From an uncultured Treponema sp. (lineage in GTDB: Bacteria; Spirochaetota; Spirochaetia; Treponematales; Treponemataceae), in contig CAKUTI010000009.1 of the NCBI GenBank assembly GCA_934691925.1, positions 1 through 58,876 on the forward strand: a stretch of 58,876 bases of DNA, given 5' to 3'. The first letter of the stretch is position 1. Each line of letters starts with the position of its first letter. Shown here piece by piece: positions 2,471-58,876 of the stretch. The position numbers and the translations under genes are program-made. The notes under the pieces were generated by a model, which ran no database searches, was not told where the DNA came from, and saw only the letters and a list, made by a program, of their open reading frames with translations.

Positions 2471-3525
2471 GATTAAAAGCGACAAATCCTCAAAATCAGA
2501 ATAAAGATTTTAGTCAGAACGAAAATTTTTCCTCAAATTCGGAAGAAAATCTGAATTCAAAATCGGCTGAAAGTCAGATTGAAAATCTGAATCAAAATTC
2601 TGCTGAATCCGGATTAAAATCCGAATCGAAGTCAGAAATTGAAACGAAGAGCGAATTAAATTCAAAAAGCGCGTTTGAAAAATTTTTCGAGACTGTAAAA
2701 GCTGTGCGAAAGGGCTGCCCGTGGGACAAAGACCAGACCGCGCTTTCGCTCCGCTCCACTTTTTTTGAGGAAACTTGCGAGGCCTTGGACGCAATCACCG
2801 CGCAGGATTCTGAGCACGTAAAGGAAGAGCTTGGCGATGTGCTTTTGAATGTTGTCTTGATTGCTTATCTTTTTGAGGAAAAAAATCTTTTCACGGTTGA
2901 GGACTCAATCAACGCAATTACTGAAAAGCTGATTCGCCGCCATCCGCACGTTTTCAAGGAAAGCGAAGGCAAAAGCGAGATAAGAGACGAGGCGAAAACT
3001 TCCGATCAGGCTTTGAGCCAGTGGGACAGAATCAAGGCAAATGTTGAGGGAAGAAAATCTGATTCAGTTCTGGACGAAGTTCCTGAGAATTTTCCTCCGG
3101 TTTTAAAATCCTATAAAATGCTCAAAAAAGCCGCGAAGCTGAATTTTGAGTGGCGAAGCATAAGCGAGTGCGCGGAAAAATTTTTTGAGGAGCTTTCTGA
3201 GATGAAATCCGCGCGCGAGGAAGTTCAAAGCGCGAAAAAATATCCCGACGAAAAGCCGTTTTCTGTAAGCTCGGACTCAAAAGAGCTGGACGAGGCACAG
3301 CTTCATCTTGAGGAAGAATTCGGCGACGCGCTTCTTTCGTTCATAAATTACGGCCGCTGGCTTGGAATCGACGCTAATGTTGCGCTTCAAAGAGCAAACA
3401 AAAAGTTTTACAGGCGTTTTACTTTCGTTGAGAAAAAAATGAAGGAAAACAATATTCCTTTTGACGAAAGCCAGAAAAAGCAGATGATGGAATTTTGGGA
3501 GCAGGCGAAAAACTCAGGAATTTGA
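2467..3525 (+). CDS. mazG: nucleoside triphosphate pyrophosphohydrolase MazG
   Basis: Hydrolyses NTPs/dNTPs to the monophosphate and pyrophosphate, a nucleotide-pool housekeeping activity. The MazG core starts about residue 65 with GCPWDKDQT and is followed by the metal-binding EETCEALDAI and EELGDVLLNVV motifs, KLIRRHPHVF, and a second acidic helix (LEEEFGDALLSF) in the C-terminal half, as in two-domain MazG proteins. The first roughly 60 residues are a Ser/Asn/Glu/Lys low-complexity tail not expected in MazG. The ATG at 2467 overlaps the pth stop as ATGA and is preferred to an in-frame ATG at 2434. The 352-residue length exceeds the usual ~265 because of the tail and small inserts. Confidence 0.9.
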   Translation: MRLKATNPQNQNKDFSQNENFSSNSEENLNSKSAESQIENLNQNSAESGLKSESKSEIETKSELNSKSAFEKFFETVKAVRKGCPWDKDQTALSLRSTFFEETCEALDAITAQDSEHVKEELGDVLLNVVLIAYLFEEKNLFTVEDSINAITEKLIRRHPHVFKESEGKSEIRDEAKTSDQALSQWDRIKANVEGRKSDSVLDEVPENFPPVLKSYKMLKKAAKLNFEWRSISECAEKFFEELSEMKSAREEVQSAKKYPDEKPFSVSSDSKELDEAQLHLEEEFGDALLSFINYGRWLGIDANVALQRANKKFYRRFTFVEKKMKENNIPFDESQKKQMMEFWEQAKNSGI

Positions 3526-15719: not shown

Positions 15720-16355
15720 ATGCGAAAAAAGCACATTCCTGTAAAAAAACTTTATTTTCTTATGAACAAGGCGGCGGGAACAGTCTGCTCAACTGTGAGC
15801 GATCGGCGGCGGACTGTCTACGAGGCGTTTCCAGAGGCGGTTTTGGCTGACGGGAACGGCGCAAGGCTTCATTCGGTCGGTCGGCTTGACGCTGACACCG
15901 AGGGGCTTCTTCTTTTTACGAACGACGGAAAGCTCAGCAATTTTTTGACCCGGCCGGAAAGCAAAATCGAGAAGACTTATCTCGCCTCTCTTGCGTCGCC
16001 GGTTTGCACTTCTGAGCAGAAAAATTATTCGGAAAAAGCGACTGCCGGGCTGGTTCTTCCGGCTGAAAAAAAGGCTGGCGAGCAGAAAAGCGGCGTGGCG
16101 AAAATCTTGTGGCGAAGCGAAACCGAATGTGAAATCTCTCTGTGCGAGGGAAAATTCCACGAGGTAAAGAGAATCTTCCGCGCGCTTGGAAACGAGGTCA
16201 AAAATCTCAAAAGAATAAAGTTTGCGGGGCTTGCGCTTCCGGCTGACTTGGGCGAAGGCGACTTTAGGGAATTGACGGCGGAAGAAACCGAATTCCTTGC
16301 AAATTTGCAGATGACGAATCAAGAAAAAGTGCTTGGACAGGAATCGTCATTTTGA
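15720..16355 (+). CDS. RsuA/RluB-type pseudouridine synthase
   Basis: Isomerises uridine to pseudouridine in rRNA. The catalytic motif is GRLDADTEGLLLFTNDG with the essential Asp. Other family blocks are NKAAGTVCST near the N-terminus, KTYLA, and GKFHEVKRIFRALGNEVKNLKR in the C-terminal half. There is no N-terminal S4 domain, which most RsuA/RluB proteins have, so the 211-residue protein is the catalytic domain alone. The last 13 residues and the stop codon lie inside the first unit of the 41-bp tandem array, so the C-terminus is repeat-derived. Confidence 0.88.
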   Translation: MRKKHIPVKKLYFLMNKAAGTVCSTVSDRRRTVYEAFPEAVLADGNGARLHSVGRLDADTEGLLLFTNDGKLSNFLTRPESKIEKTYLASLASPVCTSEQKNYSEKATAGLVLPAEKKAGEQKSGVAKILWRSETECEISLCEGKFHEVKRIFRALGNEVKNLKRIKFAGLALPADLGEGDFRELTAEETEFLANLQMTNQEKVLGQESSF

Positions 16356-16609
16356 CGAATCAAGAAAAAGTGTTTGGACGAGAGTCGTCATCGTGACGAA
16401 GCGTGAAAAAGTGTTTTGACGAGAATCGTCATCATGACGAATGACGAAAAAGCGTTTTGACCGAAATCGTCACCGTGACGAATGGCGAAAAAGTTCTAAA
16501 ACGGCAATCGTCACCGTGACGAAGCGTGAAAAAGTGCTGAAACAGCAATCGTCATTTTGACGAAGCGTGAAAAAGTTCTAAAACGGCAGTCGTCACCGTG
16601 ACGAATTGC
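16312..16609. repeat. 41-bp tandem array with a palindrome at each junction
   Basis: Units begin at 16312, 16353, 16394, 16435, 16476, 16517, 16558 and 16599 (the last partial), always exactly 41 bases apart. Each starts TGACGA, has a conserved GAAAAAG core near position 12-18, and ends TCGTCAnnn. Junctions therefore form the palindrome TCGTCA-N3-TGACGA. Unit bodies differ at several positions, so the array is not recent. It fills the space between two convergent genes. 41 bases is close to four helical turns. Confidence 0.9.
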
Positions 16610-31428: not shown

Positions 31429-32159
31429 AACTGAAAATTCGAGTTTTAAATAAGCCAGGGGCTGAAAAGTTTTGATAGAAGGCCAGGCCGGAGCTTAGCA
31501 TGTAAGCGACTATGCTATAGAAAAAATGGCGGATACTTCCAGCCTTGTGGCATTCAAGCTGAAAATTGTTTTCCAACGTTACCCGGAAGGCTCGGATCCT
31601 TGCGGATGATAATCTCCTTTTGTTGATTTTCCCTTTCGTGCAAAAAGATTATGCTGACCGTACAATAGCAAAATATTGAGCGTGCAAAAAGATTATGCTG
31701 ACCGCCCAATAGCAAAATGCTGAGCGTAGATAAAGATTTTGCTGAGCGTACAACAGCAAAATGTTGAGCGTAGATAAAGATTTTGCTGAGCGTCCAATAG
31801 CAAAATGCTGAGCGTGGATAAAGATTATGCTTGATAGCCAAAGAGCAAAAGATGCTCATTTCATGGCAATCCTTTAAGCTTTCTTGCCGTCAGGACAAAT
31901 AAGGCTTTGCGTTTTTTTTGTAATTTTTTGCTGGAACTCGAAATTCAGGCTAAAAAATATTTTTGTTTGGAAGAAAATCGCCGGGAAAATGCTTCATTCG
32001 ACAAAAACATTTCCGCTTACAAAAATAGCCTGAAAGAAATCGCTGCCATAAAATAAAATGCGGAGAAAATCTCTGCCCGAATGCAGCTTAAGCGGCAATT
32101 GGACTTTAATCAGAAAATTCTCCGCAAATCTTAAATTTTTATTCAGTTTTCAGTCGCGT
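31429..32159. other. long intergenic region without a recognisable gene
   Basis: 731 bases between convergent genes. The first 200 bases contain a short hairpin (TAGCAT...ATGCTA, 31497-31518) and moderately GC-rich sequence. 31637-31860 is a 44-bp tandem array. The rest is AT-rich with no start, ribosome-binding site or protein-like frame. Confidence 0.7.
31637..31860. repeat. 44-bp tandem array, four and a half units
   Basis: Units start at 31637, 31681, 31725, 31769 and 31813 (partial), exactly 44 bases apart. Each runs CGTGxAxAAAGATTxTGCTG, then AxCGTxCAAxAGCAAAATGxTGAG with a few substitutions. AGCAAAAT of one unit pairs with ATTTTGCT at the start of the next. Confidence 0.9.
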
Positions 32160-48492: not shown

Positions 48493-48720
48493 GCAGAAAA
48501 TGCGGAATGGGGAAAAGGAGGGGAGTGGTGGATGGCGGAGAAGAAAAAGTTGTTTGAGCTGCAAGCTCCTTTTTTTTATTGCGAAGCTGTTTGTGTGCTG
48601 GCAGGGGGCTTGTTCAAGCTTATGTTGATCATATGCTTTCTCAGCGCGCTTTTTATGCTTGCGGTGGACTCTTGCAATGCTTGCCTGTAATCCTAGGCTA
48701 GGGAATATGGGTATGATTTT

Positions 48721-48918
48721 AAATTAGCATTATTGATAAATCAAGTTGGAATAAAATATGTTCTAAATTGATTTCATTTTAAACTTAACTTGATTTCACT
48801 TTAAACTAAAATTGACTTCACATTAAAATCAAATTGGATATGCTTTTAATCTAAATTGAAATTATTTTTAACTCAAATTGACTTAAACTTTAATCCAATT
48901 TGGGTTTGCTTCAATATT
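48721..48918. repeat. degenerate 22-bp tandem array, nine units
   Basis: Units start every 22 bases at 48721, 48743, 48765, 48787, 48809, 48831, 48853, 48875 and 48897. The consensus begins AAATTGA and has a TTTAA core near position 14-18, for example AAATTGATTTCATTTTAAAC (48765). Phase is kept exactly despite many substitutions. Confidence 0.8.
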
Positions 48919-49134
48919 GAGTTTGCTATTGAATAAAGACAGGCTTACTGCATTGAGCAGTCAGGCTGAGTCCTATGAAAAACACTGCTGGTTTCGCCTC
49001 TTATACAAGGCTTCTGAGACTTGAAGAAAGACGGTATGGAGACTTTCGTAGGCATTGCGGCAAGCTCAGTAACCGAAAGCTGCGATAACATCTTTCAACT
49101 TTTCGTAATTTAAAAAATCATTTGAATCGCAAAA

Positions 49135-49163
49135 ATGACAAACAATAATTATTTCCCTATAAT
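49135..49163 (+). promoter_or_regulatory. promoter of the type I restriction operon
   Basis: ATGACA (49135-49140; five of six to TTGACA), a 17-base spacer and a perfect TATAAT (49158-49163). It lies about 40 bases before the hsdM ATG, with GGGG at 49193-49196 as ribosome-binding site. Confidence 0.7.
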
Positions 49164-49202
49164 AAAGCAGTTTTATTTATTGTCTTTTTATTGGGGTATT
49201 TT

Positions 49203-50747
49203 ATGTCTGGCATACAGCAGAGGGCGGAATTACAGGCTCAGATTTGGAAGATTGCAAACGAGGTCCGTGGAGCGGTTGACGGCTGGGATTTCAAGCAGTT
49301 TGTTTTGGGAACGCTTTTCTATCGTTTTATAAGCGAGAATTTTTCAGATTACTTTGAGGCTGATGACGAAAGCATTGTATATGCAGACCTTGACGATTCA
49401 ATTATCACTCAGGAAATAAAAGACGATGCAATAAAGACAAAAGGATATTTTATCTATCCGAGCCAGCTTTTTGTTAATGTCGCAAAAAATGCTTATGAGA
49501 ATGAGGCTTTAAATACAGATTTGGCGAAGATATTCTCCGAAATTGAAAAATCCGCAATAGGCTACGATTCTGAGCAGAATATAAAGGGACTTTTTGCTGA
49601 TTTTGACACGACAAGCAACCGGCTTGGAAACACCGTAAAGGAAAAGAACACGAGGCTTGCGGCAGTAATAAAGGGCGTCGCAGGCTTGAATTTCGGCAGT
49701 TTCCACGAAAACCAGATTGACCTTTTTGGCGATGCCTATGAATTCCTGATTTCAAACTACGCGGCAAACGCAGGAAAATCCGGCGGAGAATTCTTCACGC
49801 CTCAGAATGTGTCAAAACTTATCGCACGACTTGCAATGCACAAGCAGGAAAATGTGAACAAGATTTATGACCCGGCCTGCGGCTCAGGCTCGCTTCTTTT
49901 GCAGGCTAAAAAGCAGTTCGAGGAAAACAAAATAGAAGACGGATTTTTCGGACAGGAGATAAACCACACAACATACAACCTTGCCCGGATGAATATGTTC
50001 CTGCACAACATAAACTACAGCAAGTTCAGGATTTCCTTGGGCGACACTCTGATAAATCCGCAGTTCAGGGACGACAAGCCTTTTGATGCGATTGTCTCGA
50101 ATCCGCCGTATTCAATCAACTGGATTGGAAGCGACGACCCCACATTGATAAACGATGACCGCTTTGCTCCGGCAGGAGTTCTAGCCCCAAAATCAAAGGC
50201 GGACTTTGCATTTATTCTTCATTCGCTGAGTTATCTTTCAAGCAAAGGACGGGCTGCGATTGTATGTTTCCCCGGAATTTTCTACCGTGGAGGCGCGGAG
50301 CAGAAAATCAGAAAATATCTTGTGGACTCAAACTTTGTTGAAACCGTAATATCGCTTGCTCCGAATCTTTTCTACGGAACTTCAATTGCCGTGAATATCC
50401 TTGTTCTTTCAAAGCACAAGACTGACAGCAAAATCCAGTTCATAGAAGCCGGCGAGCTTTACAAAAAGGAGACAAACAACAACGTTCTGACCGACGAGCA
50501 TATCAGCAAAATTATAGAAGCGTTTGATTCAAAAAAAGACATCCAGTATTTCTCAAAATCAGCGGAACTTGAAGATGTCGCGAAAAATGACTACAACCTT
50601 TCCGTTTCAAGCTACGTTGAAGCCAAGGACATCCGCGAAAAAATCGACATCAAGGAACTGAACTCAAAAATCAAGGAAATTGTCGCAAGAGAAAATGTTC
50701 TTCGCACTGAGATTGACAAGATTGTTGCGGAGATTGAGGGGGAATAA
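49203..50747 (+). CDS. hsdM: type I restriction-modification DNA methyltransferase subunit
   Basis: N6-adenine methyltransferase that forms the M2S core. The 514-residue protein has an N-terminal helical HsdM domain ([20 protein letters not shown]), AdoMet motif [11 protein letters not shown] at 223-232, catalytic motif [10 protein letters not shown] at 300-307, and a C-terminal helical tail for HsdS contact. The ATG at 49203 follows a GGGG ribosome-binding site; the TTG at 49191 is less likely. Codon use is like the chromosome, unlike the rloA/rloB genes that follow. Type I subunits S and R lie downstream but are separated by accessory genes. Confidence 0.95.
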
Positions 50748-50858
50748 TTGTCTTAGATGGTAAAAATACGATTAAATTTGCAAAAAATATGCAAATTTGA
50801 TAACAAAATCGATGTGCTATGCCGATATTGGTTATAAGAACTATAAAATGAGGAATAT

Positions 50859-52124
50859 ATGATTTTAGAATATTCAATCACAAATACATATTCAATTGGA
50901 GAAAAACAAACCATTAGTTTTGAACCGACTACTTATGATGAAGAAAATAAAAATCATTATATTGATGTTAATGGAACAAAAATATTAAAACTTGCCTGTA
51001 TTTATGGTTCAAATGCAGCTGGAAAAACAAATATGGCTGTGGCTCTAAATTTCTATTTACGTTTTATGGCTTATTCATTTTATACTACAAAGCCAGAAGA
51101 GAAAATTCCATTTGTACCGTATTTTTTTGAAACAGAAAATCTTGATGATGTTTGTGGAGAATTCGATTTAGTTTTTTTTGCATACAGCACAGAAGAAAAA
51201 AAATATATAAAATATCACTATTATTTAAGAATCAATAGAAATGAGGTTTTGGAAGAGTCCTTAAATTATTATCCTAAAAAATTGCCGCGCCTGATATTCA
51301 ACAGAAATAAAATGAATATTGAATGGGGAAACTCTGTGAAAGGAGCAAAAAAAGCAATAGAAGATATTCTTATTTCCAACTGTTCTTTAATTTCTGCAAG
51401 TTCTAAAACAAAAATTTCTGTCCTTAATGATGTATTTTTTTATATTGTTAATAGATATAAAGGCTTTTTTAGCCCTTTTAATAATGAAATCCCACAATCT
51501 TTGCTTGAAAAACTTGATAATGATGAATCCTTGAAAAACAAGGCAACTGGTTTTCTTTCATTTGCTGATTTCGGTTCTATATCAGATATTTCAATAAAAA
51601 AAGAAATCAAAGAGTCGAATGGAAATTTGTCATTAACTGCTTCAAATAATAAAGAAAAAACTAATAGAAGAGCTTCACTGGTGCATAAATATAATCAAAA
51701 AGAATATCCATTGCCATTGGGGCTTGAATCTGCTGGTACAATAAGAGTCTTGGAGCTGATAGAGCCACTGGTGAATTCGAGCGAATCTAGTTTGACGATT
51801 ATAGATGAAATAGAGGCATCGTTGCACCAAGACTTAATAGAAGCCTTTTTAAGATTATTTTTGGAATTGTCTAAAAATGCTCAATTGCTTTTTACAACCC
51901 ACAATCAGGAATTATTAGATTCTGGATTAATTTTAGATGATGAGGTTTGGTTCTGTACAAAGACTCAAAATGGAAACAGTGTGTATAATTCTATTTCGGA
52001 TTTTAAAGGCTTTAGAAAAGAAGTCTCCCGAAAAAAACTGTATCAGGCAGGAAAATTTGGCGGTTTACCAAACATTGATATTCAAGGTCTAAAGGAGTTG
52101 TTCTATGGCAAGAAGAAAGATTAG
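50859..52124 (+). CDS. rloA: RloA/AbiLi-like AAA ATPase
   Basis: The 421-residue protein has an ABC/SMC-like ATPase core: Walker A GSNAAGKT at 50-57, and Walker B SLTIIDEIEASLH with Asp316-Glu317, followed by a LLFTTHNQELLDS His-switch. This is the architecture of RloA, AbiLi and related OLD-like defence ATPases. It overlaps rloB by 20 bases and should form a two-gene module with it. The DNA is very AT-rich (a sample of 60 bases near 51200 has about 20% G+C), far from hsdM and hsdR, so the module was probably acquired separately. Confidence 0.85.
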   Translation: MILEYSITNTYSIGEKQTISFEPTTYDEENKNHYIDVNGTKILKLACIYGSNAAGKTNMAVALNFYLRFMAYSFYTTKPEEKIPFVPYFFETENLDDVCGEFDLVFFAYSTEEKKYIKYHYYLRINRNEVLEESLNYYPKKLPRLIFNRNKMNIEWGNSVKGAKKAIEDILISNCSLISASSKTKISVLNDVFFYIVNRYKGFFSPFNNEIPQSLLEKLDNDESLKNKATGFLSFADFGSISDISIKKEIKESNGNLSLTASNNKEKTNRRASLVHKYNQKEYPLPLGLESAGTIRVLELIEPLVNSSESSLTIIDEIEASLHQDLIEAFLRLFLELSKNAQLLFTTHNQELLDSGLILDDEVWFCTKTQNGNSVYNSISDFKGFRKEVSRKKLYQAGKFGGLPNIDIQGLKELFYGKKKD

Positions 52125-52731
52125 AACTCCTGCATATAAGACAATTCTTCTTGTTGTTGAAGGAGAGACTGAGCAGATTTATTTTGAACGGTTAAAGGCT
52201 TTTGAAAAATATCCGAACTTACGAATAAAACCTGAGATGCCAAAGCATAGTAACATTGGTACGTTGCTTGATTTTGCGAAAAAAGAAGCTAAGTCAAAAG
52301 CTTATGATGCAGTGTGGCTCTTGTTTGACAGGGATGTTTTAAAGACGCAAAACATTTCCAAAGACATTCTAAAACAGATAAATGATAAAAACACTATGGC
52401 TAAATTAAAAATAAATTTGGCGGATTCGTTTCCATGTTTTGAAGTCTGGTTTTTACTGCATTATTGTTTGCCAAAGCAATATTACAGTTCTCAGAATGAA
52501 TTGATAAAAGATTTATGCAAATGTCTGCCTTCATATACTAAAAATAATGTCTGGTTGTCTAGAAATGATATTTATAAACTGTTAAAGGACAGAATTGATA
52601 ACGCATATATAAATTCACAAAAACTTCGTTTAAGAAATGCTGGCTTTGATTCAATAGAATCTACAATGTGCAATGTTGATTTATTAATGAAAGAAATTTC
52701 AAGCCTCGCAGAATCAAATAATAATCTATAA
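52105..52731 (+). CDS. rloB: RloB/AbiLii-like TOPRIM protein
   Basis: The 208-residue protein starts with the RloB pattern: LLVVEGETEQIYFERL with Glu19, then WLLFDRDV with Asp75 and Asp77, the E...DxD set of a TOPRIM-like nuclease site. The middle FPCFEVWFLLHY segment is also typical of RloB. In AbiL-like and PARIS-like systems an ATPase and a TOPRIM partner together cause abortive infection; the same mechanism is inferred here, not shown. Start overlaps rloA by 20 bases. Very AT-rich like rloA. Confidence 0.83.
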   Translation: MARRKIRTPAYKTILLVVEGETEQIYFERLKAFEKYPNLRIKPEMPKHSNIGTLLDFAKKEAKSKAYDAVWLLFDRDVLKTQNISKDILKQINDKNTMAKLKINLADSFPCFEVWFLLHYCLPKQYYSSQNELIKDLCKCLPSYTKNNVWLSRNDIYKLLKDRIDNAYINSQKLRLRNAGFDSIESTMCNVDLLMKEISSLAESNNNL

Positions 52732-52762
52732 ATTGCAATTTTGATAAAAAGGAAACTGACAA

Positions 52763-54688
52763 ATGACCAGACTGAACGAACTGATAAATGAGCTTTGCCC
52801 GGAAGGTGTGGAATATATAGACTTTTTTTCTTTGTGTAATTATATCCGTGGAATTACATATAATAAGACTAACGAAATAAATGACGGTTCTGTTGGAATA
52901 AAAGTTCTTCGTGCTAATAACATTACTTTGGAAACAAATTCATTAAATTTTGAAGAAGTGAAAATTGTTTCACCAGATGTAAAAATAAAAGCTTCTCAAT
53001 GGCTAAAATACCAAGATATTTTAATATGTGCAGGAAGTGGAAGCAAAGAGCATATCGGAAAAGTTGCATATATTTTCAATGATATGAATTTTACCTTTGG
53101 CGGTTTTATGGGTGTCATTCGCCCAAAAGGGGATAGTTTAAATTCTAGATTTTTGTTTCATATTTTAACAAGTGATATATTCAAAAGACATTTGGCAAAA
53201 ACATCAGGAGCTGCAAGTGCTACAATCAACAATATAAATAATGATACTTGGAAAGATTTCAAAATCCCCGTGCCGCCTCTTCCGGTTCAGGAAGAAATCG
53301 TGCGGATTCTTGACAAATTCACGTCGCTAGAAGCGGAGCTAGAAGCGGAGCTAGAAGCGGAGCTAGAAGCTCGCCGCGTTCAGTATGAATACTACCGCGA
53401 CGAGCTTCTAACAAGAGAAACTAAAGTTCAAATAAAAACTCTTGGTGAAGTATGCGAAATTGGAGTAGGTGATAAACCGAAATCAATATTAGAAAGTAAA
53501 ACAGAATATGAATATATAAATGCCGGAACGACAAATTCGGGTTATACTGATTGCTCAAATTGTAAAGGGGATACAGTTACAACACCGTCGAGAGGACAAG
53601 GAGGCATTGGTTTTATTGGTTATCAGAAAAAGAATTTTTATTTAGGGCCCTTGTGTTACAAAATTCGGTCAAAAAGCATTGATTATTTGTTAAATAAATA
53701 TCTTTTCTATTATCTGCAGAGCAATGATGAAAAAATATTAAAAATCAGAAATTCTGGAGGCGTTCCTTCAGTAAACAGAAGTGATTTAGTAAATATTTCC
53801 ATCGCAATTCCTTCTCTCGAAGTGCAAAAGCGAATCGTCAACGTCCTCGACAACTTTGACGCAATCTGCTCCGACCTTAAAATCGGGCTTCCGGCGGAAA
53901 TCGACGCGCGCAAAAAGCAGTACGAATATTACCGTGATTTGCTCTTGACATTCGCTGAACGCGGCAACACAATCCTCACAGAACAGAACAGAACAGAACA
54001 GAACAGAACAGAACAGAACAGAACAGAACAGAACAGAACAGAACAGAACAGAACAGATGAGATAAAACTGCTCCAGTATGTTTTTGGATATGCTGTTGTT
54101 CGGCTGGGAGAAATTGCAACAGTCGTTCGTGGCGGAAATTTCCAGAAAAAAGATTTTGTTGAAGAGGGCAAGCCTTGTATTCATTACGGTCAGATGTATA
54201 CGCATTTTAGGACTTATGCGGATAAAGTTTTGACTTATATTTCAGAAGATGTTTTCAAGAAATCAAAAATTGCAACAAAAAATGACATTATTATGGCTGT
54301 AACAAGCGAAAATGTTGAAGACGTTTGCAGTTGTGTTGCTTGGCTTGGAAAAGAAGATGTTGCGGTAAGCGGTCATACAGCTATTATTCATCATAATCAA
54401 AATGCAAAATTTCTTTCATACTACTTTCATTCAAATATTTTTTTTGAGCAAAAGCAAAAACTTGCACACGGCACAAAAGTAATAGAAGTTACTCCGTCAG
54501 CATTAAATGACATAAAAATTCCGCTTCCCCCGCTTGCCGAACAGGAGCGGATTGTAAAAATCCTGGACCGCTTTGAAAGCCTCTGCAACGACATTTCTTC
54601 AGGGCTTCCGGCAGAAATCAAAATGCGCAGAAAACAGTACGAGTTTTACAGGGATAAGCTTCTGTCGTTTAAGGAAAAAGCAAATTGA
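52763..54688 (+). CDS. hsdS: type I restriction specificity subunit with three half-units
   Basis: DNA-recognition subunit for HsdM and HsdR. At 641 residues it is about half again as long as normal. It reads as TRD1 (1-170), conserved helix 1 (PPLPVQEEIVRILDKF... with LEAE repeats at 189-204, YEYYRDELLT), TRD2 (about 220-345), conserved helix 2 (VQKRIVNVLDNF...QYEYYRDLLLTF), an EQNRT x5 linker (407-431), TRD3 (about 435-590) and conserved helix 3 (LAEQERIVKILDRF...QYEFYRDKLLSF). The linker is a GAACA x15 repeat, whose copy number decides whether TRD3 is made. TRD1 DNA is AT-rich. The ATG has a GGAAAC-type ribosome-binding site. Confidence 0.9.
   Translation: MTRLNELINELCPEGVEYIDFFSLCNYIRGITYNKTNEINDGSVGIKVLRANNITLETNSLNFEEVKIVSPDVKIKASQWLKYQDILICAGSGSKEHIGKVAYIFNDMNFTFGGFMGVIRPKGDSLNSRFLFHILTSDIFKRHLAKTSGAASATINNINNDTWKDFKIPVPPLPVQEEIVRILDKFTSLEAELEAELEAELEARRVQYEYYRDELLTRETKVQIKTLGEVCEIGVGDKPKSILESKTEYEYINAGTTNSGYTDCSNCKGDTVTTPSRGQGGIGFIGYQKKNFYLGPLCYKIRSKSIDYLLNKYLFYYLQSNDEKILKIRNSGGVPSVNRSDLVNISIAIPSLEVQKRIVNVLDNFDAICSDLKIGLPAEIDARKKQYEYYRDLLLTFAERGNTILTEQNRTEQNRTEQNRTEQNRTEQNRTDEIKLLQYVFGYAVVRLGEIATVVRGGNFQKKDFVEEGKPCIHYGQMYTHFRTYADKVLTYISEDVFKKSKIATKNDIIMAVTSENVEDVCSCVAWLGKEDVAVSGHTAIIHHNQNAKFLSYYFHSNIFFEQKQKLAHGTKVIEVTPSALNDIKIPLPPLAEQERIVKILDRFESLCNDISSGLPAEIKMRRKQYEFYRDKLLSFKEKAN
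53327..53370 (+). repeat. 12-bp in-frame repeat in the central helix of hsdS
   Basis: Three perfect copies of CTAGAAGCGGAG (53327-53362) plus eight bases of a fourth encode LEAE LEAE LEAE LEA. The position in the spacer helix between TRD1 and TRD2 is the one where EcoR124I-type enzymes have 12-bp TAEL repeats that set spacer length. Confidence 0.9.
53981..54055 (+). repeat. pentanucleotide repeat (GAACA)15 in hsdS
   Basis: Fifteen perfect copies in 75 bases, encoding EQNRT five times. Five bases is not a multiple of three. Multiples of three units keep the frame; other counts reach TGA or TAA within a few codons after the tract (GATGAGATAA). Confidence 0.95.
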
Positions 54689-54724
54689 ATTTGACGGATT
54701 ATATCATTTAGGTTATGTTTTCTC

Positions 54725-55111
54725 ATGGGGTATAAAGTCAAGTTATTTTCAATATGTGGAAAAGAACCTGTGCTGGATGCGATTTTGGGTACAGAGCCGA
54801 AAATGCAGGCAAAAATCTATCGTGAAATTAACTTGCTGGACGAATATTGGAGCGATGCAAAAAAAATAATGGAAAAAAATCCCGAAGTAAAAAAAGAATT
54901 AGACCTTAACGAAGCTGAATATCAGGTTATACGTGCTGTCATCAAGGCAAGGCAGGAAAGCGGATTGACTCAGGCTGAATTGGCGGAACGCGCTGGAACA
55001 AAACAGTCAAATATCGCGCGGCTTGAAAGCGGCCGTGCAAATCCAACAATCGAATTTCTTCAGAAAGTTGTAGGCGCAATGGGAAAGAAAATCTCAGTTT
55101 CGATAATCTGA
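54725..55111 (+). CDS. HigA-like antitoxin fused to a HigB-like toxin N-terminus
   Basis: The 128-residue protein appears chimeric. Residues 1-42 (VKLFSICGKEPVLDAILG, AKIYREINLLDEYW) resemble the first third of HigB/RelE-type toxins. Residues about 50-128 are a HigA-type antitoxin: a helix with NPEVKKELDLNEAEYQVIRAVIKARQ, then an XRE helix-turn-helix GLTQAELAERAGTKQSNIARLESG and a short beta tail KKISVSII. The toxin catalytic core is missing, so an in-frame deletion probably joined the two genes. The antitoxin could still bind DNA. It lies between hsdS and hsdR on the same strand. Confidence 0.7.
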   Translation: MGYKVKLFSICGKEPVLDAILGTEPKMQAKIYREINLLDEYWSDAKKIMEKNPEVKKELDLNEAEYQVIRAVIKARQESGLTQAELAERAGTKQSNIARLESGRANPTIEFLQKVVGAMGKKISVSII

Positions 55112-55152
55112 AACACGAAAACAATGGTATAATATTCAAATGGAGGCGGAGT

Positions 55153-55380
55153 ATGAGAAAAGAATTTTGTGAAAAAGACGGAATAATCATTACCTACACA
55201 GATGATAATGTCTGTTTTGAAGATGTGAATACGGCCGAATCAATATTGCTTTCAAATGATGGGAAAATTTTGCACTCAAACTTTGATGATAAAAAAAATC
55301 AGTTTTATATAGCTTACCTTAAAAAGATTTATCCGGCGATTACAACTTATAGAACTTTGGATTCTGTGGAGAGCGCTTGA
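55153..55380 (+). CDS. small protein of unknown function
   Basis: The 75-residue acidic protein (DGIIITYTDDNVCFEDVNTA, then a short Tyr-rich C-terminus) has no recognised motif. GGAGG at 55142-55146 gives a good ribosome-binding site before ATG 55153. Its stop overlaps the start of the DUF4160 gene (TGATG), which implies translational coupling and a two-gene unit, perhaps of toxin-antitoxin type. Confidence 0.6.
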   Translation: MRKEFCEKDGIIITYTDDNVCFEDVNTAESILLSNDGKILHSNFDDKKNQFYIAYLKKIYPAITTYRTLDSVESA

Positions 55381-55655
55381 TGCCTATTTATATCAGGACA
55401 TTTGGATATAAAGTTTATATTTGGTCTAATGAAAAAGACGAGCCGATTCATTTTCATGTTACAAAAGGAAATCCGTCTGAAAATGATACGAAAATATGGC
55501 TGTTGTCAAACGGCTCTTTTCAGTTGGCTCATAATAAAGGAAAAATTCCAGAAAAAGATTTAACTAGAATATTGTCTGCGCTGCAGGCTTATTATTTTGA
55601 TTTTATTGATTTTTATAAAAATTATCTTAGCTCAGAAATAAAGTTTTATAAATAA
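55380..55655 (+). CDS. DUF4160 family protein
   Basis: The 91-residue protein has the DUF4160 pattern: MPIYIRTFGYKVYIWSNE, then the EPIHFHV core (conserved HFHV) and a C-terminal helix (EKDLTRILSALQAYYFDFI). Function unknown; members often sit beside a small partner such as DUF2442. The ATG at 55380 overlaps the stop of the upstream small gene and is preferred to the TTG at 55377. It is 12 bases upstream of hsdR. Confidence 0.75.
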   Translation: MPIYIRTFGYKVYIWSNEKDEPIHFHVTKGNPSENDTKIWLLSNGSFQLAHNKGKIPEKDLTRILSALQAYYFDFIDFYKNYLSSEIKFYK

Positions 55656-55667
55656 GGAATCCCGAAA

Positions 55668-58600
55668 ATGGCAGAATACAGGACAATCGCCGAGTCTCCA
55701 AATTACATTGTTTTGGACAAATACGTAAAGCCGCTTATGGTCTGCGAGAACGGCTATCAGTCGGAATTCGATCTGGAACGTGAGCTTGTTGAGGGCTTGA
55801 AAAATCTTGGCTATGAATATCTTCCGGACGTGAAAAATTCCTCTGCTTTGCTTTCAAATGCACGCACGCAGATAGAGGAGCTGAACAACGTTCATTTTCT
55901 TGACAGCGAATGGGAACGCTATGTTCAGACTTACCTTGACAAGCCCAGCGACACAATGGACGGCAAGGCGCGCAAGATTCACGACGATTACATTTGCGAT
56001 TTTGTCTTTGACGACGGACGTATTCAGAACATCTATCTTATAGACAAGGATAAGCTTCTTCGTAACAAGGTTCAGGTAATCCGGCAGTTTGAGCAGACAG
56101 GCACTCATCAGAACCGCTACGATGTTACGATTCTTGTGAACGGAATTCCTATGGTTCAGGTGGAGCTGAAAAAGCGCGGCGTTGCAATCCGCGAGGCGTT
56201 CAATCAGGTTCACCGCTACAGCAAGGAAAGCTTCAATTCTGAACATTCGCTTTACAAATATCTTCAGGTTTTTGTGATTTCCAACGGAACTGACACACGC
56301 TATTTTGCGAACACGACAAAACGGAACAAGAACAGCTTTGACTTTACAATGAACTGGGCAAAGTCCGACAACTCGCTCATAAAAGATTTGACCGATTTTA
56401 CGCAGACTTTCTTTCAGAAAAACACTTTGCTCAATGTTCTTTTTACTTATTCGGTTTTTGACACGACAAATACGCTCCTTGTAATGCGGCCTTATCAGAT
56501 TGCGGCGACAGAACGCCTTCTGTGGAAAATAAAAAGTTCTTATATCGCAAAAAACTGGAGCTGCACGGAAAGCGGGGGCTACATCTGGCACACAACAGGC
56601 TCCGGAAAAACGCTTACGAGCTTTAAGGCGGCCCAGCTTGCGACTCGGCTTGAATTTATTGACAAGGTTTTCTTTGTTGTTGACCGCAAGGATTTGGATT
56701 ATCAGACGATGAAGGAATACCAGCGTTTTTCGCCTGACAGCGTGAACGGCTCGGAAAGCACAGCAGGGCTTAAGCGCAACATTGAAAAAGACGACAACAA
56801 AATCATTGTCACGACAATTCAAAAACTCAACAATCTGATGAAAAGCGAGGATAATCTTGAAATCTACCGCAAGCAGGTTGTCTTTATTTTTGATGAGTGC
56901 CACCGCTCTCAGTTCGGTGAGGCTCAGAAAAATCTTAAAAAGAAGTTCAAGTTTTATTATCAGTTCGGATTCACAGGAACACCGATATTCCCGGAAAATG
57001 CTCTTGGCGCGGAAACCACGGCCTCAGTTTTTGGCAGGCAGCTTCATTCCTACATTATTACAGACGCAATCCGTGATGAGAAAGTCCTAAAATTCAAGGT
57101 TGACTACAATGATGTTCGTCCGAAATTCAAGGAGATAGAATCTGAGCAGGATGAGAAGAAGCTTTCCGCGGCGGAAAACAGGGAGGCTCTTCTTCATCCT
57201 GACAGAATAAAGGAAATCACGCAGTACATTCTTGAGAAATTCAACCAGAAAACGCACAGGACTTTTGGAAGCGCGAACGGATTCAACGCGATGTTCGCAG
57301 TGAGCAGTGTTGAAGCCGCAAAAATGTATTACGAGTCGTTCAAGAATTTGCAGAAGAATAAAGAAAAGCCGCTGAAAGTCGCCACGATTTTTTCATTTGC
57401 GGCGAACGAGGAGCAGAACGCAATCGGCGAGATTCAGGACGAAAGTTTTGAGACAAGCGCAATGGATTCAAGCTCAAAGGAATTTCTGGATTCCGCAATT
57501 GGCGATTACAATAATCTTTTCAAGACAAATTTCAGCACGGAAGGAAAAAGTTTTCAGAATTATTACAGGGACCTTTCAAAACGCGTAAAAAATCAGGAAG
57601 TTGATTTGCTGCTCGTTGTCGGAATGTTTCTTACCGGTTTTGACGCGCCGCGCCTTAACACTCTTTTTGTTGACAAGAACCTGCGCTACCACGGTCTGAT
57701 TCAGGCTTACTCGCGCACGAACCGCATTTTCGATTCCACAAAGACATTCGGAAACATCGTTACTTTCAGGGATTTGGAGCAGGCGACGGTGGACGCAATC
57801 AAGCTTTTCGGGGCTACAAATCACATAATCCTTGAAAAAAGCTATTCAGAATATATGAATGGGTTCAGCGACAAGGAGACCGGCGAAACTTGCCGGGGCT
57901 ACATTGAGGTTGCAAAGGAGCTTGAGGAAAAGTTCCCGAATCCTGATGAAATCATAACCGAAAAGCAGAAAGTCGAATTTACAAGATTGTTCGGAGAATA
58001 CCTGCGTATTGAAAATGTCCTGCAGAATTATGATGAGTTTGCAGGGCTGAAGGCGTTTCAGAGAATTGACCAGAACGATGAAAAAGCCGTTGAGGAATTC
58101 AAGGCAAAATATTATCTGAGCGATGAGACTGTTGCAGCGATGAAGGGCGTGAAAATTCCTTCCGAACGTGCGGTTCAAAACTATAAGTCAACTTACAATG
58201 ACATACGCGACTGGCTTCGCAATCAGAAAGAATCCGACAAAAAAGACGCGCTGAAAATCGACTGGAGCGATGTTGTCTTTGAAGTTGACCTTTTGAAATC
58301 TCAGGAAATAAATCTTGACTACATTCTTGAGCTGATTTTTGAGAACAACAAAAGAAATCAGAACAAGGAAACGATTGTTGAGGACGCGCGCCGACTTATC
58401 CGCTCAAGCATTGGAAACCGCGCAAAGGAAAGTCTGCTCGTGGAATTTATTAACAAGACGAATCTTGATGAAATCAGCGACAAGGTGGCTCTTATAGATT
58501 CATTCTTTAAATACGCGCAGGCGGAACAGCTCCGTGAAGTGGACGAGCTGATTGCGGAAGAAAAACTTAACCCTGAAAAGGCAAGGCATTACATCGCAGT

Positions 58601-58763
58601 CTCATTGAAAAAAGAATTCGCAAGCGAAAACGGAACTGAGCTGAATTCGATTCTTCCAAAAATGAGTCCGCTGAATCCGAATCATCTGACAAAAAAACAC
58701 ACTGTTTTTCAGAAGATAACGGCTCTGGTGGAAAAGTTTAAAGGCGTGGGCGGAAGTGTTTGA
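55668..58763 (+). CDS. hsdR: type I restriction endonuclease subunit
   Basis: ATP-dependent translocating nuclease of the type I enzyme. The 1031-residue protein has a PD-(D/E)xK nuclease domain with VELKK at 165-169, helicase motif I TTGSGKT at 309-315, motif II DECH at 409-412, and later helicase motifs ([40 protein letters not shown]). The C-terminal helical part continues to the stop. Codon use matches hsdM. A ribosome-binding site AAGGAA lies before the ATG. The type I operon thus spans 49.2-58.8 kb with hsdS and accessory genes between M and R. Confidence 0.95.
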
Positions 58764-58876
58764 TTATTTTAACACGCAAAATTTATCATAAATTAAAAAA
58801 TCATTTACGAATTTTCTTGCCGATTGGAATTTATTTTTATATTTTAAAGTTAAAGTTGATGAAAAATCGCTTTGGA
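58764..58876. other. AT-rich right-hand edge, nothing recognised
   Basis: 113 AT-rich bases after the hsdR stop. No hairpin with a U-run, start codon with ribosome-binding site or repeat is evident before the window ends. Confidence 0.6.

Follow-up and report, generated by a model that had tools for sequence, protein, structure and literature searches.

A pentanucleotide tract in a Treponema hsdS gene as a very probable switch between two and three target recognition domains

Why would a type I specificity gene carry a long, perfect pentanucleotide repeat in the middle of its reading frame? The question is raised by hsdS in a contig of an uncultured Treponema sp. (CAKUTI010000009.1, positions 1 to 58,876; hereafter the window, meaning this whole stretch of 58,876 nucleotides). 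Canonical HsdS subunits have two target recognition domains (TRDs) and two conserved-region (CR) helices that form one coiled coil. The well-described forms of phase-variable restriction turn a methyltransferase on and off, convert a one-reader subunit into a two-reader subunit, or shuffle half-site readers by inversion. The tract studied here is very probably a real switch of another kind. We put the probability at about 0.82 that slippage in it exchanges a two-TRD HsdS for a three-TRD HsdS, changing the target sites of the enzyme rather than its activity.

The tract and the products of its three registers

The open reading frame (ORF) that spans the tract encodes 641 residues. Its product matches the Methylase_S family (PF01420) at 236.5 bits, against a cut-off of 22, in three separate stretches, and its best solved relative by sequence is the EcoR124II HsdS 7bst (E 1.2e-32). 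The translation was divided by eye, with approximate boundaries, into TRD1-CR1-TRD2-CR2-tract-linker-TRD3-CR3 (Table 1). The three TRDs are 20–27% identical (27% for TRD1-TRD2, 20% for TRD1-TRD3 and 24% for TRD2-TRD3) and the CRs 49–57% (CR2-CR3 57%, CR1-CR2 49%, CR1-CR3 51%). The protein thus holds three different target domains on one repeated scaffold.

An earlier note on this DNA had proposed that 15 perfect GAACA units hold the frame and append TRD3 with a third helix, and that other copy numbers leave a complete two-TRD HsdS of about 430 residues. The frame arithmetic agrees with it. Counted for 0–25 units, the frame runs into TRD3 (the ON state) whenever the unit number is divisible by three, as it is at 15. 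With 14 units translation ends at a TGA after 430 residues, with 13 at a TAA after 430 and with 16 at a TAA after 435; these are the stops that the note had worked out, and both lie at most eight bases past the tract. These OFF products retain TRD1-CR1-TRD2-CR2, the canonical form with two TRDs and two CRs, while the ON product has three of each. One refinement is needed, in that OFF length depends on copy number and ranges from 410 to 450 residues across 1–25 units. Chance does not explain the tract: when the window was simulated 60 times under a first-order Markov model, the longest period-5 run reached 16 nucleotides, against the 80 observed.

In the mechanism that we propose, replication slippage would alter the number of five-nucleotide units. 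One register out of the three would let the ribosome pass the tract and a conserved helix into the third TRD-CR unit and complete the 641-residue protein; in the other two it would meet a stop within a few codons and release the complete two-TRD HsdS. The ON form would gain a further bipartite specificity, through TRD1 or TRD2 acting with TRD3 or through TRD3-TRD3 pairing between molecules. The switch would therefore alter the choice of sites that are methylated and cut, not whether the system works.

Both states at one junction among relatives

A scan of species-representative genomes gave at least 80 loci, supplemented by loci from Treponema and Lachnospiraceae groups. The locus script required CR2, the linker and an open downstream frame of at least 150 residues, and it merged duplicates of one locus. 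It returned 29 distinct complete loci, the window included, of which 13 are ON and 16 OFF. Three loci outside its motif filter were frame-checked (L010 ON; L029 and L031 OFF), bringing the complete genomic loci to 32, with 14 ON and 18 OFF. A repeat of at least three copies and at least 10 nucleotides occupies the gap between CR2 and linker in 30 of them; the two repeat-free loci, L003 and L045, are both ON. The unit at this junction has 2, 4, 5 or 7 nucleotides and never a multiple of three. Its kinds are AG; GACA, CGAA and GCAA with their rotations; GAACA and CAGAG; and seven-base units. The only other repeat of at least 16 nucleotides in the 29 script-found genes is an in-frame 12-mer in CR1, present in 15 of them, window included.

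In each of the 16 script-found OFF loci, a stop begins 0–25 nucleotides past the tract and TRD3-CR3 stays open over 180–209 residues. As the script itself demanded 150 residues downstream, a recount was made without that demand over 37 loci, including viral and plasmid records (L010 was missed). TRD3-CR3 again spans at least 180 residues in all except L141 and L142, whose short frames are cuts by contig ends. The silenced half might also be expressed separately. A Shine-Dalgarno-like site precedes one of its first four in-frame starts in 6 of the 18 OFF loci (L011, L021, L029, L061, L126 and L135), at differing places. With no consistent restart this candidate was rejected, and we treat the TRD3 half as silent when OFF, as a working assumption.

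Repeat-bearing members occur in five phyla (Bacillota, Fibrobacterota, Pseudomonadota, Fusobacteriota and Spirochaetota) and a repeat-free one in Bacteroidota. Phyla were assigned from record titles and from the lineages of Absicoccus, Fibrobacter, Ruminobacter, Limimorpha and Fusobacterium, with Treponema counted under Spirochaetota. Gut and rumen are the main sources of the many other bacteria in which both states are found, and both extend to isolates. Peptoniphilus asaccharolyticus DSM 20463 and Gemmiger formicilis MCC627 are ON; Treponema zioleckii kT3, Fibrobacter intestinalis ATCC 43854, Absicoccus porci and Fusobacterium vincentii SB055 are OFF. In the F. vincentii locus (L147, NZ_CP084075.1), GCAA repeats form a very long tract at this junction of a three-TRD hsdS; its 2.1-Mb record is filed as a plasmid and carries no annotation in the hsdS stretch.

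F. vincentii also gave the one DNA match in the plasmid collection. A protein search of that collection found 1,093 records and the phage collection yielded 15, all below 60% identity. The IMG/VR pattern scan returned ten stretches, among them L137 (ON), L139 (OFF), L141 and L142 (OFF, with TRD3 truncated where the contig ends), L143 (out of frame, with only 73 residues open upstream) and L146, which duplicates L029. In the remaining four stretches (L138, L140, L144 and L145) the motif rules found no such gene.

As a search probe, a degenerate linker pattern served better than the GAACA unit. It matched 2 of 196 genomes in the T. zioleckii genus group and, in the family group to which the L012-bearing Lachnospiraceae genome belongs, 11 of 299; the reversed control gave 0 in both. 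The 133 nucleotides before the tract of L122 are 89% identical to the window and the 58 after it 95%, with 9.0 periods in the OFF state. For L123 of T. zioleckii the values are 77% before and 81% after, with 13.8 periods, also OFF. The sequence beyond the linker differs in both, so repeat and linker are shared and the target domain has been exchanged. Copy number, whose constancy among relatives would have spoken against the earlier note, varies among them.

Database proteins bring the comparison down to single alleles. Among the 120 proteins listed of 5,246 matches to TRD3, 103 exceed 500 residues, and P0001 is 96% identical to residues 430–641 of the window protein. Many relatives have a repeat peptide (EQNRT, DRQT, SRAEQ, NGTER, ERER and others) immediately ahead of an IKLLQYVFGY-like linker. 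The listed matches of this search and of searches with TRD1-TRD2 of P0073 and of the window make a set of 329 proteins, which motif rules divide into 163 ON, 22 OFF (ending just past the repeat peptide) and 144 in neither class; the ratio is no population frequency, as the searches were seeded by the window gene or an ON protein. Three alleles are represented by ON and OFF proteins alike, which match at 100% from TRD1 through CR2 (P0202 vs P0144/P0145; P0205/P0206 vs P0146; P0265 vs P0217). P0072 and P0073 are identical on either side of the repeat and differ in copy number alone. One TRD1-TRD2 of 416 residues, about 99–100% conserved, is followed by 0, 1, 2, 3, 6 or 7 SRAEQ copies and by four types of TRD3; pairs compared among three of these types are 37–44% identical. 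P0006 and P0008 are 99.5% identical upstream and end in different OFF tails. Among the listed matches, the nearest relatives of the window TRD1-TRD2, P0210 (71%) and P0211 (68%), are both OFF and terminate in the same repeat. Between genomic loci and database proteins there was no same-allele pair, the best reaching 81% identity.

TRD3 is exchanged among alleles independently of the upstream half, as would be expected of a working specificity domain. In related HsdS proteins, a GGNFQKKDF-type TRD stands at positions 1 and 3 (P0001, P0002) or 1 and 2 (P0005, P0006), a movement of domains between slots. The genetic side of the earlier claim, a toggle between two-TRD and three-TRD forms in place of switching off, is borne out by the relatives, which share the junction, occupy both frames and keep TRD3-CR3 unbroken. 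Beyond this we infer that the change arises by slippage, that each product is active and that the two forms differ in methylation specificity.

Competing explanations and known systems

Several points weigh against a switch. The evidence for switching is drawn from relatives, and the window organism contributes one sequence. Most loci come from metagenome assemblies, where OFF calls may partly be miscounted repeats, though isolates are OFF as well. Four of the 30 repeats are weak, at 12–15 nucleotides (L026, L044, L050 and L070). GAACA itself is no marker of the switch, as its tracts also lie elsewhere in Treponema-group genomes: (GAACA)4 occurs in 15 of the 196 genomes of the T. zioleckii group (reversed control 2 of 196), and of 18 places fetched, hsdS accounts for 3 (L121, truncated at a contig end, L122 and L123). 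The remaining 15 lie outside it, in part between genes and in part within a different ORF or at its end. Finally, two AlphaFold2 models disagree on how the TRDs of an ON protein pair. That of the window protein aligns with the two-TRD HsdS 7vs4_C over residues 16–635, as if TRD1 paired with TRD3, and that of P0073 over residues 16–413, with TRD1 paired with TRD2. The input alignments had been chosen on different halves, which makes the contrast a hint only, and we claim no TRD pairing.

Among the tracts outside hsdS (L106–L120), one deserves mention in its own right. In L120, the tract at 3273–3328 of the reverse complement continues in frame as part of a long ORF, which by eye resembles an acyltransferase and is perhaps another contingency gene.

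The third unit could instead be inhibitory. A three-TRD protein would then form no working M2S complex (two HsdM subunits with one HsdS), the two-TRD form would be the active one, and the tract would be an on/off switch of inverted sign. A third helix has no canonical place in a subunit with two TRDs and two CR helices, and the models of the ON proteins reach only moderate predicted template modelling scores of 0.60 and 0.56. Yet the repeat-free L003 and L045 are ON, and P0079, named Streptococcus oralis, is a 624-residue HsdS that has the linker and no repeat detected in the protein. TRD3 is diverse and swapped between alleles, and the three-TRD HsdS of Helicobacter pylori methylates two different sites (JHP1422/JHP1423, M.Hpy99XV; PMC3936762). 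We consider inhibition unlikely.

Slightly less probable again is that the tract serves mainly as a recombination seam, behind which TRD3-CR3 cassettes are swapped after one TRD1-TRD2 and frame loss is a by-product. The four TRD3 types behind the same repeat fit this, as does the low identity of the pairs compared among three of them. So do ten further loci whose contigs start less than 200 nucleotides upstream of the linker (L015, L016, L019, L020, L025, L027, L127, L128, L132 and L134); such starts may reflect variation of the tract or its surroundings, and repeats alone can also break assemblies. However, a seam requires neither a unit length that always avoids multiples of three nor a stop so soon after the tract in every script-found OFF locus. 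A non-repetitive linker would suffice for it, and the same-allele ON/OFF pairs require slippage only. The roles of seam and switch may coexist.

That OFF alleles are decaying or misassembled genes is very improbable. Short-read assemblers can miscount long tandem repeats, and most loci are metagenomic, but TRD3-CR3 is open over at least 180 residues in every recounted OFF locus whose end is in view, and isolate genomes show the OFF state too. Moreover, 11 of the 16 script-found OFF tracts are at most 58 nucleotides long, below a common short-read length taken as a general yardstick rather than from the reads of these assemblies. Least credible of all is a mere flexible protein linker of variable length: the repeat peptide is modelled with low confidence and presumably disordered in both models (residues 406–425 and 417–434) and varies widely in length in frame, but 18 of 32 loci are out of frame with natural OFF alleles that keep open downstream frames, and the same genes, in 15 of 29 cases, use an in-frame 12-mer in CR1 against junction units of 2, 4, 5 or 7 nucleotides.

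Within the preferred reading of a two-TRD/three-TRD switch, a bolder version is possible, and we offer it tentatively, with the odds somewhat against it. The repeat might set the partner of TRD1: in OFF, CR1 and CR2 would join TRD1 with TRD2, and in ON, CR3 could replace CR2 and join TRD1 with TRD3. This would yield two to three bipartite specificities with an exchangeable third slot, in a cross-phylum module that arose with different repeats at one junction. CR3 is closer to CR2 than to CR1 (57% vs 51%), and the contrast between the two structure models gives a hint of such alternative pairing, no more.

How does such a switch compare with known ones? In the type IC enzymes EcoR124I and EcoR124II, a repeat in the central helix alters the spacer between half-sites and keeps both the frame and the TRD number. 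The window system resembles them in its HsdS, in an HsdR with an EcoR124_C domain and in the 12-base-pair repeat of CR1, which is probably a spacer-length repeat of the same kind that alters length and not frame; the GAACA tract, in contrast, changes TRD number. One gene thus combines an in-frame repeat within a helix and a frame-breaking repeat ahead of an extra domain.

Phase variation by simple sequence repeats (SSRs) is well represented in hsdS, 7.9% of REBASE hsdS genes reportedly carrying them in the survey by Atack et al. (2020, FASEB J), as cited in PMC7394358 and PMC9577141. The window gene has the same hallmarks, a non-triplet unit within an ORF and, in its relatives, varying copy number and both frames. 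According to PMC9577141, the poly-G tract of NgoAV in Neisseria gonorrhoeae toggles between two products that differ in specificity, one of half length and one fused, and the short product works. The likeness is in a short-repeat tract within hsdS that changes product length; here a change of specificity would follow as well. The difference is that NgoAV alternates a 208-residue half-length with a fused full-length protein through a homopolymer, whereas here a two-TRD HsdS gains a third TRD through a five-nucleotide unit (2, 4 or 7 nucleotides in relatives).

The H. pylori protein likewise holds three TRD-CR units in one HsdS. Its TRD2 and TRD3 are identical copies and its variants look recombinational, whereas the window TRDs are 20–27% identical, with no sign of such a duplication in TRD2 and TRD3, and the third unit is gated by a frame-shifting repeat. 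Inverting hsdS loci (SpnD39III/SpnIII, cod locus) change HsdS specificity reversibly within a clonal population, as the window system would. They do so by recombining several hsdS genes at their inverted repeats. An inversion system around the window hsdS was rejected, as no near-perfect inverted repeat of at least 20 nucleotides occurs in 48500–58876 (the best are 23 nucleotides at 83% or 37 at 70%). Among the seven ORFs scanned with Pfam in 49191–58763, none matched a recombinase family.

SSR-variable hsdS and three-TRD HsdS are each already known. Three-TRD genes made by recombination are described in PMC3077401, and PMC12429846 credits three-TRD HsdS to the 2020 FASEB J survey. A repeat that gates a third TRD was found nowhere in the accessible portions of the literature searched, in which subscription papers are thinly covered; the survey by Atack et al. 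may list the combination. The earlier note had called a switch that appends a whole unit unusual, a judgement that is not borne out, given how widespread the arrangement is, the prior descriptions of three-TRD HsdS and what that survey may cover.

The locus and the meaning of a third reader

The type I restriction-modification locus occupies the plus strand of the window in the order hsdM, AAA ATPase gene, RloB-like gene, hsdS, small genes and hsdR, with all three hsd genes on one strand (Table 1). The ATPase and RloB-like pair is context and lies outside the switch. The small genes between hsdS and hsdR include those of a helix-turn-helix (HTH) and a DUF4160 protein. By eye, the first 40 residues of the XRE-type HTH protein (54725–55111) resemble the beginning of a HigB-type toxin and may be a remnant that became fused. 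Elsewhere in the window, tandem arrays lie at 16311–16606 (41-base-pair unit, 7.2 copies) and 31637–31831 (44-base-pair unit, 4.4 copies).

Table 1. Coordinates of the restriction-modification genes and of the parts of hsdS in the window
Feature	Position	Strand	Basis
hsdM	49191..50747	+	PF02384 E 4.2e-122, HsdM_N
AAA ATPase and RloB-like pair in the hsdM/hsdS gap	50859..52731	+	PF13304, PF13707; PADLOC AbiLi/AbiLii models
hsdS, ON frame, 641 residues, three TRD-CR units	52763..54688	+	ORF; three PF01420 stretches, E 2.4e-70; PADLOC Specificity_I
TRD1	52763..53266	+	approximate, translation divided by eye
CR1, central conserved helix	53267..53419	+	translation divided by eye; helix 173-216 in model
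In-frame 12-bp tandem repeat GCTAGAAGCGGA x3.8 in CR1, LEAE units	53326..53370	+	Tandem Repeats Finder, 100% matches
TRD2	53420..53809	+	approximate, by eye; PF01420 stretch 221-380
CR2, end of two-TRD core	53810..53968	+	translation divided by eye
Perfect period-5 tract, 80 nucleotides, 16.0 periods, encoding (EQNRT)n	53978..54057	+	(GAACA)15 at 53981-54055
TGA ending the 14-unit frame	54058..54060	+	frame count
Conserved linker IKLLQYVFGY before TRD3	54062..54091	+	found behind different repeats in relatives; helix 421-441 in model
TAA ending the 13- and 16-unit frames	54063..54065	+	frame count
TRD3, only in the ON product	54092..54526	+	translation divided by eye
CR3 and stop codon	54527..54688	+	translation divided by eye
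hsdR, EcoR124 type	55668..58763	+	PF12008 EcoR124_C E 3.8e-66, HSDR_N, SWI2_SNF2

The finding raises a structural question, namely how an HsdS with three helices assembles with HsdM. Five phyla have the device at one and the same junction, built from different units, and each state is represented among public assemblies, so it can be tested at once in cultured isolates. In the bacteria that carry it, slippage would equip an already working enzyme with a third reader. Each phase could then carry a different epigenetic mark, and neither phase need be unprotected against phage.

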